Shown here piece after piece: positions 4,421 to 49,903 of a stretch of 64,000 bases of DNA. Location of the stretch: positions 62,001 to 126,000 of the forward strand of contig NZ_QQZY01000008.1 of assembly GCF_003351045.1 (NCBI RefSeq). The letters are read 5' to 3'. Under the pieces are notes generated by a model. It saw nothing but the letters and a program-made list of their open reading frames with translations, made no database searches and had not been told where the DNA came from. Source of the DNA: Gaiella occulta (GTDB lineage: Bacteria > Actinomycetota > Thermoleophilia > Gaiellales > Gaiellaceae). The translations under genes were made by a program, and so were the position numbers. Position 1 is the first letter of the stretch. Each line of letters begins with the position of its first letter.

Positions 4421-5013
4421 GGCGCAGACCTCAGGCTCACGCTCGTCGAGTACGTGTACTGCCGCCCGGGCGAGGCCTTGGTGGCGACGGTGAAGCTGAT
4501 CCGCACCGTGCGCACGTTCGCTGCGACGGTGGTGGGGGCGTTCGCGGCGTCGAGATAGGTGAACGGGCTCGCGTTCGTGATCGAGTCGACGACGAGGCCG
4601 TAGGCGCCGAGCGCGGGGAAGATCCACGGGGCGCCGTCGGTGTCGCTGCTCGTCGCCATCGCCCGCTCGAGGCGGCCGCTGCCGACCCTGTAGGCGATGC
4701 GGCGCAGGTGGAACGGCTGCGCGCGGTCGGGAGAGAGGAACTGGAGCGCCGTCCCCGTCGCGACCTCGATCGGCGCCGTCGCGCCGTCGCCCGAATACGC
4801 CTGCCGCACCTCGGCGGCGAGCCGGTCGATCGCCGCCCGCAGCTCGGTCTGCGTCACGTCCTGCTCCTGGATCTCCGTGCTGTGCCGGATGGTGGTGCTG
4901 AGCAGCGCGGAGAACGACCCGACGAGCAGCCCGATGATCGCGAGCACGACGAGCATCTCGGTCAGCGTGAAGGCGGTCTCGCCGCGCAGCCTGGTGAGGA
5001 GGCGGCTGCTCAC
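4417..5013 (-). CDS. Type IV minor pilin (PilW/PulJ-like)
   Basis: The 198-aa product has a classic prepilin signature: a short leader ending before FTLTEMLVVLAIIGLLVG, with Glu at +5 of the mature form. The hydrophobic helix is followed by a helical region (TQTELRAAIDRLAAEVRQA) and a beta-rich C-terminal domain, as in PulJ/PilW minor pilins. The residue before Phe is Ala where Gly is usual, so processing may be less efficient. The GTG start at 5013 overlaps the upstream pilin stop (GTGA), and its own stop overlaps the next start (ATGA). This indicates stoichiometric translation with its neighbours. Confidence 0.85.
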   Translation of the reverse strand: MSSRLLTRLRGETAFTLTEMLVVLAIIGLLVGSFSALLSTTIRHSTEIQEQDVTQTELRAAIDRLAAEVRQAYSGDGATAPIEVATGTALQFLSPDRAQPFHLRRIAYRVGSGRLERAMATSSDTDGAPWIFPALGAYGLVVDSITNASPFTYLDAANAPTTVAANVRTVRISFTVATKASPGRQYTYSTSVSLRSAP

Positions 5014-7475: not shown

Positions 7476-8648
7476 CTACCGGAGCCCGGATCCGAAGCGC
7501 TGCACGGCCGTGGCCCGATCGCGCGCGCTCTCGCCACGGCCGCCGTTCTCGGCGGCGTGCTCCCTCTGCAGCTTGTCCTTCTCGGCCCGCTCGAGCGCGA
7601 CGAGGAAGTCGTGCCGGTTCGTCGATGCGTTCGCGGCGACGTCGGGCTCGACGACGCCTGCGAGCACGAGGTCGATCAGCGACTGGGCGAACGTCTGCAT
7701 CTGGAAGAACTCGCCGGCGGCGATCGCGTCGGAGATCTCGTTGGGCCGGTTCTCGCGGATGAGGTCGGCGATGCGCGCGTTCGTCACCATCACCTCGACG
7801 GCGGGCACGCGCCCGCCGTCGGCGCGCACCAGCAGGCGCTGGCTGATGACGCCGCGCAGCGTGCCGGCGAGGATGGAGCGCACCTGCTGCTGCTTGCCCG
7901 GCGGGAAGAGCTCGATCATGCGCCCGACCGTCTCGGCGGCGTCGATCGTGTGCAGCGTCGAGAAGACGAGGTGGCCGGACTCGGCCGCCTGCAGGGCGGT
8001 GTGCGCGGTCTCGGTGTCGCGCAGCTCGCCGATCAGGATGACGTCGGGGTCCTGGCGCAGCACACGGCGCAGCGCCTGCTCGAAGCTCTCCGTGTCGAGG
8101 CCGACCTCGCGCTGGTTGACGATGCAGCCGCGGTCGGGGTGCAGGATCTCGATCGGATCCTCGATCGTGACGATGTGCTGGCGCCGGGTGCGGTTGACGT
8201 GGTCGAGCATGGACGCGAGCGTCGTCGTCTTGCCGGAGCCGGTGGCGCCGGTGACGAGCACGAGGCCGCGCCGCTCCTCGGCGAGGCGGGAGACGCCCGG
8301 CGGCAGGCCGAGCGCCGCGAAGTCGGGGATCTCGCTCGGGATCGCCCGGAAGGCGAACGAGACGGCGCCGCGCTGCCGGAAGCCGTTGACGCGGAAGCGC
8401 GGGAGCGTCGGGTGCGCGAACGCGATGTCGAGGTCGCCGGTCTCCTCGAACAGCTCGCGGCGCCGGGGCGCGATCTGCGTGACGGCATCGAGCACGTCCT
8501 CGAGGTCGGACTCCGTCAGAGCGGGCACGTCGTGCATCTGCTCGAGGTCGCCGTCGAGCCTGACGACCGGCGGCTGGCCGAGCTTGAGGTGGACGTCGCT
8601 GGCGCCGCCGTCGACGGCGCGCCGAAGGAGGGCGATGAGATCGATCAC
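7476..8648 (-). CDS. pilT: Twitching motility retraction ATPase PilT
   Basis: This cytoplasmic ATPase depolymerises type IV pili. The 390-aa length and the N-terminal sequence containing GGASDVHLKLGQPP are typical. Walker A GATGSGKTTT lies near residue 135, and the Asp-box/Walker B region contains DPDVILIGELRD. A His box contains FSTLHTIDAAETV. The PilT-specific C-terminal region has NARIADLIREN, equivalent to the AIRNLIRE motif required for retraction. The start is GTG 8648. It heads the minus-strand pilus operon, which continues through the pilins to pilB. Its presence implies retractable pili and thus twitching or DNA uptake rather than a pure secretion pseudopilus. Confidence 0.95.
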   Translation of the reverse strand: MIDLIALLRRAVDGGASDVHLKLGQPPVVRLDGDLEQMHDVPALTESDLEDVLDAVTQIAPRRRELFEETGDLDIAFAHPTLPRFRVNGFRQRGAVSFAFRAIPSEIPDFAALGLPPGVSRLAEERRGLVLVTGATGSGKTTTLASMLDHVNRTRRQHIVTIEDPIEILHPDRGCIVNQREVGLDTESFEQALRRVLRQDPDVILIGELRDTETAHTALQAAESGHLVFSTLHTIDAAETVGRMIELFPPGKQQQVRSILAGTLRGVISQRLLVRADGGRVPAVEVMVTNARIADLIRENRPNEISDAIAAGEFFQMQTFAQSLIDLVLAGVVEPDVAANASTNRHDFLVALERAEKDKLQREHAAENGGRGESARDRATAVQRFGSGLR

Positions 8649-45725: not shown

Positions 45726-45798
45726 GCCCTCTTAGCTCAGTTGGTAGAGCACCTCCATGGTAAGGAGGGGGTCGGCGGTTCGAGTCCGCCAGAGGGCT
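45726..45798 (+). tRNA. tRNA-Thr (anticodon GGT)
   Basis: The acceptor GCCCTCT (45726-45732) pairs with AGAGGGC (45791-45797), with discriminator T at 45798. The D arm has TAGCTCAGTTGGTAGAGC, the anticodon stem CCTCC/GGAGG holds loop ATGGTAA with anticodon GGT, and the T arm has GGCGGTTCGAGTCCGCC. CCA is not encoded. Mobile-element remains begin directly downstream. Confidence 0.95.
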
Positions 45799-46229
45799 TC
45801 GCAAACTTCCTGCTAATCATGGAGTTTTGGTTCGGATTTGTTTGCAGATGGCCCCGTATGTGGTGGGTATGGAGCTGTTTATGGAGCTTTCAGGTTTTCG
45901 AGGACTCCCATCTCGCTCCAAAACTGGCAACAGACTGTCCCATCAGGTGGTGCTGACCAGCCAACAAGTGATGGAGCTGATGGAGCGTTCTCGAGTCTCT
46001 CGGCAACGCAGAACCCCCGACTCGAAGTCAGGGGTGGAGTTGGAATTGACCCGCCTATGCGGAGCTACGCATAGGCGGGGCTATGACGAGTTCGGGGCTA
46101 TGCGGAGTCGGGCCGACGGCGGGACCCGAAGTGCTCTCTCGCTGAGGGTTGGCCCGGCTGACTCGTTGCCGGGGCTGCGCATAGTCCGGATGCTCCTTCC
46201 GGTGTTGTCGTTCCGGAAAGGAGCACTAC
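45799..46229. other. Non-coding, AT-richer left flank of the recombinase element
   Basis: This 431-bp stretch has no convincing gene. It is visibly richer in A/T (for example GGAGTTTTGGTTCGGATTTG) than any neighbour, and its short open frames lack codon bias. It holds several TGGAGCTG-type repeats, a strong 12-bp inverted repeat (46050-46079) and a family of CTATGCGnAG decamers. It is probably the left end of the RIT-type element together with foreign DNA inserted beside tRNA-Thr. Confidence 0.6.
46050..46184. repeat. Inverted repeat and CTATGCG-family decamer cluster
   Basis: Perfect 12-bp arms CCCGCCTATGCG (46050-46061) and CGCATAGGCGGG (46068-46079) surround a 6-nt spacer. Decamers related to CTATGCGGAG occur at 46055 (+), 46065 (-, CTACGCATAG), 46081 (+, CTATGACGAG), 46098 (+) and 46175 (-, CTGCGCATAG). 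Direct copies GGGGCTATGaCGAG and GGGGCTATGcGGAG lie at 46077 and 46094. Repeated, partly palindromic sites beside recombinase genes look like recombinase-binding sites at an element end. Confidence 0.6.
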
Positions 46230-47153
46230 GTGTCAGTCGAATTGTGGACCCTCGAAACGCTGGTCGAGGCGTACAAGCAGCATCAGCGCCGCACGCGCGG
46301 GCTGCGTGAGCAGACGCTGCACGGTTACGAGCGCTTCGTGCGGCTGTTCGTCCGCGCGGCCCTCGGTGATGATCCGATCGATCCAGGGCAGCTCGGCCCC
46401 GCCGACGTCGTCGGGTTCATGGCCGCGATGCGGTGGCGCTTCTCTCCCCGCTCGATGAAGGCGGTTCGTACCGCGCTGCGCTCGTTCTTTCGTTTCCTGC
46501 GCGTCGAGGGGCTGTGCGACGAGCGGCTCGAGGCGGCGCTCCCGAGGGTCGCGTATTGGCGGCTGTCGATGCTTCCTCGCTGCCTGAGCGACGAGCAGCT
46601 GGCGCTGGTGCTCGCGTCGCTGGATGCGTCGAGGCCGTGCGGGCGCAGGGACCGAGCGATCGTGGTCTGTCTGGCGAGCTTGGGCCTGCGACCGGGTGAG
46701 CTCGCCGACCTGCGGCTCGAGGACATCGACTGGCGCGCCGGCACCATCCTGCTGCGCGAGCGCAAGACCCGCCGCGGCGCCGTGCTGCCGCTTCCGCGCG
46801 AGGCCGGCCGGGCGGTCGTCGCCTATCTGCGCGAGGAGCGCCCGGCGACCAAAGAGCGGCGCGTGTTCGTGCAGCAGCTGGGAGCGCGTCGCGGCCGACC
46901 GCTGACGGGCAACGCCGTCTCGGGCGTCGTCGTGCGGGCGCTTCGGCGCGGCGGAGTCGAGGCGCCGCTCGCGGGTGCCTACGTCTTGCGCCACACGGTG
47001 GCGAGCCGGCTGGTGCGGCGAGGGGCGAGCCTGAAGGAGGTCGCCGACTTGCTCGGCCACCGCGCGCTCGACACGACGACGATCTACGCCAAACTCGATC
47101 TGGCGGCGCTGCGCGAGGTCGCGCTTCCCTGGCCGCAGAAGGTGACCCGGTAA
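46230..47153 (+). CDS. Tyrosine recombinase, first of trio (RitA-like)
   Basis: The 307-aa phage-integrase-family protein has a core-binding SAM-like domain (about 10-95) and a catalytic domain (about 115-300). The catalytic residues are present: Arg in SLGLRPGELADL, Lys in RERKTRR, the His-x-x-Arg of YVLRHTVASRL, His in LLGHRALDTT and Tyr in TIYAKLD. GTG 46230 has AAGGAG 7 nt upstream. The stop TAA overlaps the position where the next recombinase should start. The sequence looks intact, so it could still bind or act. Confidence 0.85.
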   Translation: MSVELWTLETLVEAYKQHQRRTRGLREQTLHGYERFVRLFVRAALGDDPIDPGQLGPADVVGFMAAMRWRFSPRSMKAVRTALRSFFRFLRVEGLCDERLEAALPRVAYWRLSMLPRCLSDEQLALVLASLDASRPCGRRDRAIVVCLASLGLRPGELADLRLEDIDWRAGTILLRERKTRRGAVLPLPREAGRAVVAYLREERPATKERRVFVQQLGARRGRPLTGNAVSGVVVRALRRGGVEAPLAGAYVLRHTVASRLVRRGASLKEVADLLGHRALDTTTIYAKLDLAALREVALPWPQKVTR

Positions 47154-48103
47154 CGGCGCCGAGCTTCCTGCCGCTGGTCGACGACTACCTTGCCTACCGG
47201 CGCGGGCTGGGTTTCGCGCTGGAGACGCCGGCCTGGCTTTTGCGCGACTTCGCCCGCTACGCCGACTGGAGCGGACACCGGGGGCCGCTGACGAGCGGGC
47301 TCGCGGTCGGCTGGGCGCTCTCTTCGCGCTCGAGCGATCCGGCCCAGCCCGCTCGGCGGCTGGCGGCGGTGCGCCAATTTGCCCGCTACCTGGCGCTGCT
47401 CGAGCCGGCGACCGAGGTGCCGCCGGACGGGCTGCTCGGCCGGGTGCCGCACCGCCGGCGGGCGCACATCTTTAGCGAGGTCGAGCTCGCCGCGCTCCTG
47501 CGTGAGGCGAGCCTGCTGCTGCCCCGGCGCGGGCTGCGCCCGCGCACCTACGTGACCTTCTTCTCGCTGCTCGTCTCGACCGGGCTGCGGCTGTCGGAGG
47601 CGTGCCAGCTCGACTGCGGCGACGTCGACCTCGACGCCGGCGTCCTCACCATTCGGGAAGGCAAGTTCCGCAAGAGCCGTCTCGTCCCGCTGCATCCGAG
47701 CGCCGCCGCGGCGCTCGCCCGCTACGCCGCCGAGCGTGACCGATGCTGCGACCCGGTCGAGCCCGGCCGCTTCTTCCGCACCGAGCGCGCCCCGGCGCTC
47801 ACCGCCGCGGCGGTCGAGAAGACGTTCAGCCGGATCGGGCAGCGGCTCGGCTGGACCGCGCAGGGGCGGGCATGCCGCCCGCGGATCCACGACCTGCGCC
47901 ACACCTTCGCCGTCCGCCGGCTGCTTGGCTGGTACGAGGAAGGCGCCGATCTCGAGCGCAAGCTACTCGCCCTCTCCACCTACCTCGGCCACGCCAAGGT
48001 CAGCGACACCTACTGGTACCTGACCGGCGTCCCCGAGCTGCTGGCGATCGCCGCGCAGCGCTTCGAGCGCTACGCCCGAGCCGAGCAAGGAGGCACATCA
48101 TGA
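47150..48103 (+). CDS. Tyrosine recombinase, second of trio (RitB-like), start codon lost
   Basis: The frame from 47150 encodes 317 aa with an N-terminal LPLVDDYLAYRRGLGFALET that matches the usual start of this family. The first codon is GTA (47150-47152), overlapping the TAA stop of the first gene. A GTG start in a GTGA overlap would differ by one G-to-A change. No ATG, GTG or TTG lies upstream of TTG 47240 in this frame. Catalytic parts are present: STGLRLSEACQLDC, FRKSRLVPLH, RIHDLRHTFAVRRL, LGHAKVSDTYWYL. It is either translated poorly from a weak codon or is a pseudogene. Confidence 0.7.
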   Translation, partial: VTAPSFLPLVDDYLAYRRGLGFALETPAWLLRDFARYADWSGHRGPLTSGLAVGWALSSRSSDPAQPARRLAAVRQFARYLALLEPATEVPPDGLLGRVPHRRRAHIFSEVELAALLREASLLLPRRGLRPRTYVTFFSLLVSTGLRLSEACQLDCGDVDLDAGVLTIREGKFRKSRLVPLHPSAAAALARYAAERDRCCDPVEPGRFFRTERAPALTAAAVEKTFSRIGQRLGWTAQGRACRPRIHDLRHTFAVRRLLGWYEEGADLERKLLALSTYLGHAKVSDTYWYLTGVPELLAIAAQRFERYARAEQGGTS

Positions 48104-48763
48104 GCCCGACACCGGCCGGCTTCCCGGCGCTGCTACAGGAGTTCTTCCAGCGGCGCCTGCTCGCCGAGCGCGGCGCCAGCGCGCACACGATCGCGAGCTA
48201 CCGCGACACCTTCAAGCTGCTGCTCCGCTACGCCGAGCAGCGCACCGGACGGACAGCGTCGGCGCTGACCCTCGACGACCTCGACGCGCCGCTGGTGCTC
48301 GACTTCCTCGACCACCTCGAGCAAGCGCGCGGCAATTCGCCGCGCACGCGCAACCTCCGCCTGACCGCGATCCGCTCCTTCATGCGCCACGCCTCCCTCC
48401 GCGATCCCGCCGCGCTGCCGATCGCCCAGCGCGTGCTTGCCATCTCGCCAAACGCTTCGACCGGCCCGCGCTCGACTTCCTCTCCCGCGCCGAGGTCGAG
48501 GCGCTGCTCGACGCATCCGACCCCACCAGCTGGAGCGGCCAGCGCGACGCCGTCCTGCTCGCCGTGCTCTACAACAGCGGCGCCCGCGTCTCCGAGCTCG
48601 TCGGCCTGCGCGTCGCCGACCTGCTCCTCGACCGCGCCTCCGCCCTCCACCTCCACGGCAAAGGGCGCAAGGAGCGCATCGTCCCGCTCTGGAAGAGCAC
48701 CGCCGCGAAGCTGCGCGCCTGGCTTCGGCGCATCGACCAAAGCCCCGACGCGCCCGTCTTGTC
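48100..48763 (+). pseudogene. Tyrosine recombinase, third of trio (RitC-like), frameshifted and truncated
   Basis: ATG 48100 overlaps the second gene (ATGA) and follows AAGGAGG. The first 115 residues read as a core-binding domain with GASAHTIASYRDTFKLLLRY. At about 48447-48456 one base is missing. Homology then continues in another frame with KRFDRPALDFLSRAEVEALL, YNSGARVSELVGLRVADLL and GKGRKERIVPLWKS. It stops at SPDAPVL, before the HxxR, His and Tyr catalytic residues. The gene is therefore dead. Confidence 0.8.
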
Positions 48764-49903
48764 CTGCCAGCGCTTCACGTTGCGTTGGGTGTAGCGGACG
48801 ATCTCGATCATGCTCTCGCACGGGTTCGTCGACGAGAGGGTCGCGGCGAGGTTGCCGGTGATCCCGAGCCGCATCAACGTCAGGGTGTCGTCCAGGCCTT
48901 CGCGGAGCGAGCCGGCGGCGTCAGGCCATGTCTGCTCGAGTTCGCCGGCGAGGAGTTGCAGCCGCTGCGCGGCCAGCAGCGGATCGGTCAGCGACCAGGC
49001 CGCCCTGACCCGGACGCGGACCGTGTCGCGGTCGCGTTCGGGCAGCAGATCGGTGACGTTGCGCTCCTTGTGGCGGTGGCAGCGCTGCACCAGCGCGTGC
49101 TCGCCGAAGACGTCCTTGGTCGCGCGCCTGAGCGCCCTGGCGCCGTCGATGACGAACAGGATCGCCTGCTCGGGATCGAGGCCGCGGTCGACGAGATCGG
49201 CCAGCAGCGCCCGCGCGAGCGTGGCGTTCTCCGTCGAGCCTTCCCACAGCCCGAGCGGGATCTTGACGCCGTCAGTCGTGATGCCGAGTGCGACGACGTG
49301 CGTGCGCTCGGCGATCTCCAGGCCGTCGAGCATCATCACCGCCAGCCGCACGTCGTCCAGCCGGCGCGACATCAGCTCACCAAGCGCGGTGCGCGTGCGC
49401 TCGATGAACATGTCCGAGACCGCGGTCTTCCCGGTCGACGACGACGCCTCTTCGACTGCGCCGCCGACGGGCTCGCCGACGCGGGCGAACTTGCGGGTCG
49501 AGATACCGGCGAGCATCCGGTCCATCACCGCCCGCGTCAACGGATCGCGGTCGGCGAAATACTCGTAGCTCTCAACCGGCAGCTCGCGTTCGCCGTCGGC
49601 CGTACGCATCCGCGGGCGGCGGACAGCGACCCGCCGGCCGCCCAACGTCATCGACCCGTCCTCGTGGCCGTGCCGGACCGCGACGCGACCAGGGTCGTGC
49701 TTGCCCTTGACGCCCACGACCTCATCGACCTCGAGCTCCATCAACTCGTACACGACGCCCAGCCCGACGCCGACGCTCAGCGCGAGCAGACCCTCCCTCG
49801 CTGCCCCAACGAGCTCGCCCAGCGCCTCCTGCATTCGCGGCGGGAGCGCACTCTCCGACGCCCGCCCAGTCGTAACGACCTGGCCGACAAGTACCTTCTT
49901 CAC
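48569..49903 (-). pseudogene. IS256 (mutator) family transposase, C-terminally truncated
   Basis: The open frame runs to 48569, but only 49903 to about 48761 matches the family. The DDE residues are present: Asp in LAVMMLDGLEI, Asp in ILFVIDGARALRRA and Glu in LSSTNPCESMIE. The conserved VQRCHRHKERNVTD and RNVKRWQD are present. After RWQD the usual DGxMRLRWTAAGM and final helix are replaced by an antisense read of the RitC remnant. The GTG start has AGGAGG upstream. About 30-40 residues and the right terminal repeat are missing, so transposition in cis is unlikely. Confidence 0.85.

Follow-up and report, generated by a model that had tools for sequence, protein, structure and literature searches.

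The cluster of short repeats at positions 46050-46184 of the window, the 64-kb stretch of Gaiella occulta DNA (64,000 nucleotides) analysed here, is the left, palindrome-bearing ('long') end of a decayed RIT (recombinase-in-trio) element. As read from the sequences of RIT ends in related elements, the inserted unit comprises the element itself, bounded at both ends by the series of decamers A3-A4...A5, together with a 6-bp sequence X6' and a 20-bp palindrome, and it is flanked by 6-bp copies of a sequence X6. We consider it likely that a RIT circle has the order right end-X6'-palindrome-X6-left end, and that it would thereby hold two dif-like cores, either able to integrate.

RIT elements have been described as three adjacent tyrosine-recombinase genes, ritA-ritB-ritC, spanning about 3.5 kb, with a 28-9-bp inverted repeat and an overlapping palindromic sequence flanking ritA and ritC, ends that vary in sequence, and end features that do not fit usual recombinase sites (PMC3414803). 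Terminal repeats of 34 bp have also been given, with the remark that RIT transposition had, to the knowledge of those authors, not been reproduced in the laboratory (PMC10214605). Part of the RIT end structure, the one-sided palindrome included, may already be in print. In the passages of the first account considered here, however, a one-sided palindrome, X6 copies, a target-set side, A5 and its phasing are not given (PMC3414803). Furthermore, the copy in the window differs from RITs as published in being truncated. Its surroundings and genes are as follows.

45726-45798: tRNA-Thr, upstream of the RIT remnant
46192..46224, plus strand: predicted stem-loop over the presumed ritA ribosome-binding site (z -2.33; 5/200 shuffles fold as well; weak)
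46230..47153, plus strand: ritA, tyrosine recombinase, 307 aa (Phage_integrase, 3.1e-27)
47132..48103, plus strand: ritB, tyrosine recombinase, open frame overlapping ritA (Phage_integrase, 1.9e-21)
48100..48768, plus strand: ritC remnant, frame broken near 48444, ending where the IS256 remnant begins
48769..49903, minus strand: IS256-family transposase remnant joined to the ritC remnant (NF033543, 1.1e-54, profile positions 3-318 of 338)

The window copy has the three adjacent recombinase genes, running in one direction with short overlaps (4 bp between ritB and ritC), that define a RIT, and relatedness to known RITs is borne out by RitA, which matches an integrase on a plasmid of Aromatoleum aromaticum EbN1 at 42.3% over 97% of the query; three identical RIT copies are described in that strain (PMC3414803). 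RitA is closer to its four nearest relatives (73-79% to L006, L007, L062 and L063), and a match at E 1e-30 was present in 1 of 102 other genomes of the family. No in-frame ATG, GTG or TTG start for ritB was found between 47090 and 47240. The ritC gene and the IS256-type transposase are both truncated at their shared junction, and neither the remainder of ritC nor the right end of the element was found in the window; because these parts are gone, the window copy is probably immobile. A search of the Gaiella occulta genome found no second RIT copy, the other matches being recombinases at 31-39%, one of them ritB itself. The target of the window copy was not identified, a plasmid search with the flank 45842-45895 giving zero matches. 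That flank was also considered as target DNA in genomes of the family and rejected, since they match it as sequence downstream of tRNA-Thr. The same segment is conserved downstream of tRNA-Thr (GGT) in 9 other family genomes; by eye, the ten loci that carry it have the whole tRNA alongside in three, only its 3' half in six and none in one, partial copies recalling an attachment site used by some other integrating element.

Within 135 bp upstream of the first recombinase, the preliminary description had reported five related decamers in both orientations and a perfect inverted repeat, and all of them were located again at 46050-46184, the decamers lying within two mismatches of CTATGCGGAG.

46050-46079: perfect 12-bp inverted repeat CCCGCCTATGCG-GAGCTA-CGCATAGGCGGG
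46049..46054, plus strand: outer X6 (ACCCGC), a 6-bp spacer separating the palindrome from the host flank, at an offset common to 54 long ends of other elements
46055..46074, palindromic: 20-bp palindrome of CTATGCGGAG and CTACGCATAG, two decamers tail to tail, 9/10 pairs, positioned as in long ends of other RITs; decamer 1 starts at 46055 (plus strand, 0 mismatches to CTATGCGGAG) and decamer 2 at 46065 (minus strand, 1 mismatch)
46075..46080, plus strand: inner X6' (GCGGGG), between palindrome and element, at the offset of other RIT ends
46081..46090, plus strand: decamer 3, A3 (CTATGACGAG, 2 mismatches), the outermost decamer of the terminal repeat, at the offset of other RIT ends
46098..46107, plus strand: decamer 4, A4 (CTATGCGGAG, 0 mismatches), starting 17 bp past the A3 start, spaced as in other RIT ends
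46175..46184, minus strand: decamer 5, inverted A5 (CTATGCGCAG, 1 mismatch), 94 bp from the A3 start, a phased distance

The density of decamers is exceptional for the window, where no other 135-bp stretch holds more than three; in 60 first-order random 64-kb sequences the maximum was 2 (37 times), 3 (22 times) or 4 (once). The inverted repeat by itself is weak evidence, because the window holds five perfect 12-bp repeats with 3-10-base loops (mean 0.5 and maximum 4 in 40 random sequences). Nor is there enrichment across the window of the 11-base sequence GGGGCTATGCG, which at 2 mismatches has 23 matches against 29.8 expected. The repeat is a composite, made up of the 20-bp palindrome at 46055-46074 and five of the six spacer bases on each side (46049-46054 and 46075-46080), the reverse complement of the outer X6, GCGGGT, agreeing with the inner GCGGGG at 5/6 bases. 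Recurrence of the layout at other RIT ends, as read from their sequences, is stronger evidence than these window statistics.

That recurrence was sought in genome contigs scanned with RitA, which gave 55 loci. The motif proposed to mark the element end could have been absent from other elements; it is present upstream of ritA, with decamers likewise placed, in five relatives of interest (L006, L007, L008, L009 and L012; RitA 60-78%), and in a wider set it recurs, with diverged decamers, in 55 elements having both ends. The cluster thus describes RIT end structure, as had been supposed, with one amendment: the palindrome usually stands at a single end, which may be the left or the right one, and does not belong invariably to the left end. 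Across several phyla the order at RIT ends is the 20-bp palindrome (two decamers tail to tail), the 6-bp X6, A3, 7 bp and A4, with an inverted A5 further in at helically phased distances, and the decamers occur also beyond ritC, in mirror image and adjoining target DNA. L006 has decamers at both ends in mirror image, and these ends enclose room for only three recombinase frames. Most end-to-end lengths in the relatives are about 3.1-3.5 kb (L034, 3.7; L015, 3.8; L024, 4.3). The element of L008 sits within a gene, the flank of which matches Y2_Tnp, and only one of its junctions bears the palindrome; the outer palindrome is absent from L009 and L012, and the single visible junction of L009, which is palindrome-free, is by eye the other side of the gene motif of L008. 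Some ends depart from the common layout in other ways. L006 has palindromes at both ends (4811-4842 and 7953-7984), in direct repeat, as if the element had inserted into a resident palindrome, and L165 is alike; TTAGTCCAA lies outside a RIT end, adjacent to it in L011 and L147 and about 90-100 bp off in L177 and L178; and in L118 (about 3174) and L140 (about 7139) a RIT-like palindrome is followed by an apparent 7-bp rather than 6-bp spacer.

Pairing of ends was scored from 101 ritA hits in 93 loci, which yielded 55 elements with both terminal repeats and 46 hits without a usable pair, a shortfall that weighs against the model. By construction of the search, these 55 elements carry A3 and A4 at both ends; X6 (6 bp), the 20-bp block and an outer 6-bp block were then read at fixed offsets from A3, and a block with at least 6/10 pairs was called palindromic. 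The palindrome occurs at exactly one end in 41 of the 55 elements (left in 20, right in 21), a rule that was first noticed in part of the set later counted. Many of the elements are related (L117, which is among the 55 and was excluded from the flank, A4-resemblance and A5 analyses, duplicates L007), so the counts overstate the number of independent events. The remainder have the palindrome at both ends (5) or neither (6), or have one end off the contig (3); the first two groups count against the model, and flank pairing may explain some of these exceptions, not all. Palindromy scores are bimodal: 54 ends score 6-10 pairs, and the other 53 score 0-5 (lowest 1). Furthermore, 8-10 of 10 pairs are palindromic at 48 of 107 ends, as against 0.13% of 1576 control positions, 3.8% of which reach 6.

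On either side of the palindrome stands a copy of X6, the two being inverted and often imperfect, and X6 is found again at the other junction. The three copies agree at 4.8-5.0 of 6 bases on average, the largest shuffled mean being 2.8, and agreement is closest at the last two bases, positions 5-6 (95-100%). Among the 41 one-sided elements, the three copies are all identical in 11, two of three are identical in 17, and all differ in 13, a class that counts against the model; the inner X6 is unlike the outer one in 23. A second set, consisting of sixteen plasmid loci with L162 and L163, was run through a fixed pipeline and gave 20 ritA hits, 12 of them with both ends. The raw output for these 12 was 5 one-sided, 3 both and 4 neither, corrected by eye to 7, 1 and 4, because two of the 'both' cases were chance palindromes in target DNA without a decamer; three of the four 'neither' elements (L177, L178 and L179) are related. 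X6 positions 5-6 agree in 7/7 of the one-sided elements. The support from this set is weaker than that from the first. Its other eight hits were unpaired or at an edge (L162, L163, L164 on the minus strand, L178 on the minus strand, L167, L171, L174 and L176); L162 and L163, which failed in the pipeline, are one-sided when read by hand, and no paired terminal repeat was found on re-examination of L167, L171, L174 and L176.

At 93 ends, palindrome halves match the element's own A4 at 8.2 of 10 positions (shuffled mean 6.3, largest 6.7), a closer resemblance than that to A3 (7.3; shuffled 5.7). An inverted A5 matching at 8/10 or better is present at 93 of 108 ends, versus 5 of 108 in direct orientation, and its distances from A3 fall into clusters at 63, 72, 83, 95, 105, 116 and 139 bp, about 11 bp, or one helical turn, apart. 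Random cluster centres equal this phasing in 0.14% of trials (null p 0.0014), a figure that excludes the single distance of 121 and uses a coarser period grid for the null than for the observed clusters, which slightly favours significance. We infer that A5 must sit on one face of the helix for complex formation.

Flanking DNA was compared for 40 one-sided elements (the 41 less the duplicate), oriented so that the target X6 reads 5'-X6-3'. In 59 of 67 pairs with homologous flanks the match is on the same side and the same strand, and 33 of these 59 have the palindrome at opposite ends of the element; by this comparison, the side of the palindrome follows the target, not the element. Six of the eight non-conforming pairs involve L094, for which we take the shared sequence to be that of an adjacent RIT gene, and the other two are L019-L098 and L022-L096; the last is of true opposite polarity at the same gene motif (ISAzo13-type), two bases out of register, and counts against the model. 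Target reading frames cross the palindrome-free junction in several elements. In a Pfam scan of flank pieces from 20 elements, 17 match mobile-element families (five IS66, four phage integrase, two Mutator/IS256, two IstB, two ISAzo13, one Y2 transposase and one IS4/5), which is not a rate because the pieces were chosen by eye; the other three match ParB, a histidine-kinase ATPase and, weakly and below the cut-off, a helix-turn-helix. Four IS66 pieces from the 5' side reach the junction at profile position 270; the matches of the two Mutator pieces end at 254 and 255, and those of both IstB pieces at 160. Three integrase pieces lie at the HDLR box: two of them match up to the junction, at position 133, and the third falls five residues short of it. 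Insertion is thus close to codon-precise within a target family. Many insertions lie at conserved codons in genes of other mobile elements, namely IS66, IS256-type, IstB, ISAzo13-type, Y2 transposase and tyrosine recombinases, those of RITs among them.

A natural empty site is found in Mesorhizobium. Plasmids p_2 and p_3 of M. huakuii carry the recombinase gene uninterrupted; TCGTCA occurs there once, the palindrome is absent, and identity over the joined flanks is 98.8%. In Mesorhizobium AR02 this target holds, in copy L142, the element and three copies of TCGTCA. A RIT at the equivalent site in AR02, L141, has the opposite orientation to L142; the target side that bears the palindrome is the same in both. 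A third near-identical AR02 copy, L143, lies in a related gene. Relative to the element, the imperfect palindrome points the same way in all three. The host RIT behaves in the same way, its four insertions (in L141, L142, L162 and L163) being alike in palindrome orientation; three of these four are at one site, which we take to be a group II intron. Over the two lineages, the orientation is kept in 7/7 insertions, which are not fully independent, whether the palindrome lies left or right. For this reason the palindrome seems to be inherited as part of the moving unit, where the proposed circle would have it separate the right end from the left. A rule drawn from L021 and L139, that the palindrome side holds the X6 of the target, was dropped, since in L141 the short side has the empty-site TCGTCA and the palindrome side GCGACA.

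A scheme that would accommodate this anatomy begins with binding of the decamers by RitA, RitB and RitC. One palindrome half, X6 and A3 would together form a dif-like core, with inverted decamers around a 6-bp crossover region in which cleavage would fall, and the phased A5 would fold back to complete the complex. Excision would join the two outer junctions and leave the target with a single X6, as in the empty targets, and in the excised circle the palindrome would lie between the right and left ends, giving two outward-read cores, palindrome-X6-left end and palindrome-X6-right end. Either core could then recombine with a target X6, whose last two bases appear to need matching; with either core usable, the element would enter in either orientation and the palindrome would keep a constant side of the target. 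Reading of the palindrome, A3/A4 and the helically phased A5 by the complex may be what calls for three recombinases. A scan of the loci other than L164-L179 for circle or tandem junctions, which those with diverged decamers would escape, was negative, and this counts against the model. L028 and L050, two near-identical insertions from one Ideonella assembly, carry the X6-palindrome-X6 unit in opposite directions, and the exchange of outer and inner X6 between them needs an inversion of the palindrome unit that the simple model does not require.

The palindrome and its inverted X6 might instead arise afresh with every insertion, as through fold-back copying of an end, and so be a replicative footprint and not a part of the element. 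The X6 copies do resemble one another and, where it is known, the target, and many elements have a 32-bp X6-palindrome-X6 unit that comes close to a perfect inverted repeat; yet the asymmetric bases of the palindrome hold one orientation to the element in every Mesorhizobium insertion of both lineages, and the inner X6 so often departs from the outer one, that we regard this origin as quite unlikely. It is very unlikely that the palindrome is a property of the target, with RITs inserting beside pre-existing dif-like palindromes, as might be expected from the direct-repeat palindromes at both ends of L006 and L165. The empty site without a palindrome refutes that explanation for the Mesorhizobium case, and elsewhere the palindrome halves track the A4 of their own element and target frames run across the palindrome-free junction. 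A purely regulatory role for the decamers, as operator or promoter of ritA and with no part in recombination, is hardly credible: they do lie just upstream of ritA, where the predicted stem-loop, itself a possible means of translational control of ritA, covers the presumed ribosome-binding site, but their mirror images stand beyond ritC against target DNA, and a sigma-70 scan of 45950-46260 gave no promoter-like site.

A change of side could also come about by inversion of the integrated element in place, through recombination of an outer junction with the inner core, in lieu of excision and re-entry by either core. Three cores would permit this, and RITs could in principle invert in place. 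Consistent with such events, L010, L091 and L105 on the palindrome side, and L047 and L110 on the short side, each have matching sequence outward of A3 at their two ends, over 72-156 bp with at most 2 mismatches and with the palindrome included, a pattern suggesting mixed orientations or assembly effects; as assembly effects, these contigs would lose their force. For Mesorhizobium, simple inversion in place was rejected, because it would not invert the palindrome relative to the target, which is how we read the two opposite orientations of the element there. As a general account of the side change it is fairly improbable, and excision with re-entry by either core remains the preferred reading.

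Several well-known systems share parts of this layout. XerCD/dif sites have inverted arms around a 6-bp spacer; Tn916-type elements have one recombinase and coupling sequences of about 6 bp that may differ between junctions; and Tn554 encodes the recombinases TnpA and TnpB together with TnpC. The proposed RIT cores resemble XerCD/dif in their inverted arms and 6-bp spacer, and differ in that two cores share one palindrome and in that the spacer varies with target and element. They are like Tn916-type elements in their junction sequences of about 6 bp, whereas in the latter no palindrome is shared between the ends. Strand-biased circularizing integrative elements (SEs) and Tn554 are similar in having more than one tyrosine recombinase and 6-bp sequences passed between target and element at junctions; SEs differ in having four core genes, and a portable palindrome is not described for them in the passages of that report considered here (PMC10214605).

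On balance, we lean towards regarding RITs as a class of tyrosine-recombinase transposons in which the two attachment cores of the circular form share one portable palindrome, so that integration could take place in both orientations, the target deciding on which side the palindrome comes to lie. The layout gives exact ends for RITs, a candidate crossover region and a concrete circle junction to seek, and it offers a possible reason why RIT ends seemed to vary. Insertions at conserved codons in the genes of other mobile elements suggest that RITs live partly on other mobile DNA, and some of their insertions lie in an apparent group II intron. The sequences compared here suggest that the portable palindrome lets each element enter one target site in either direction.
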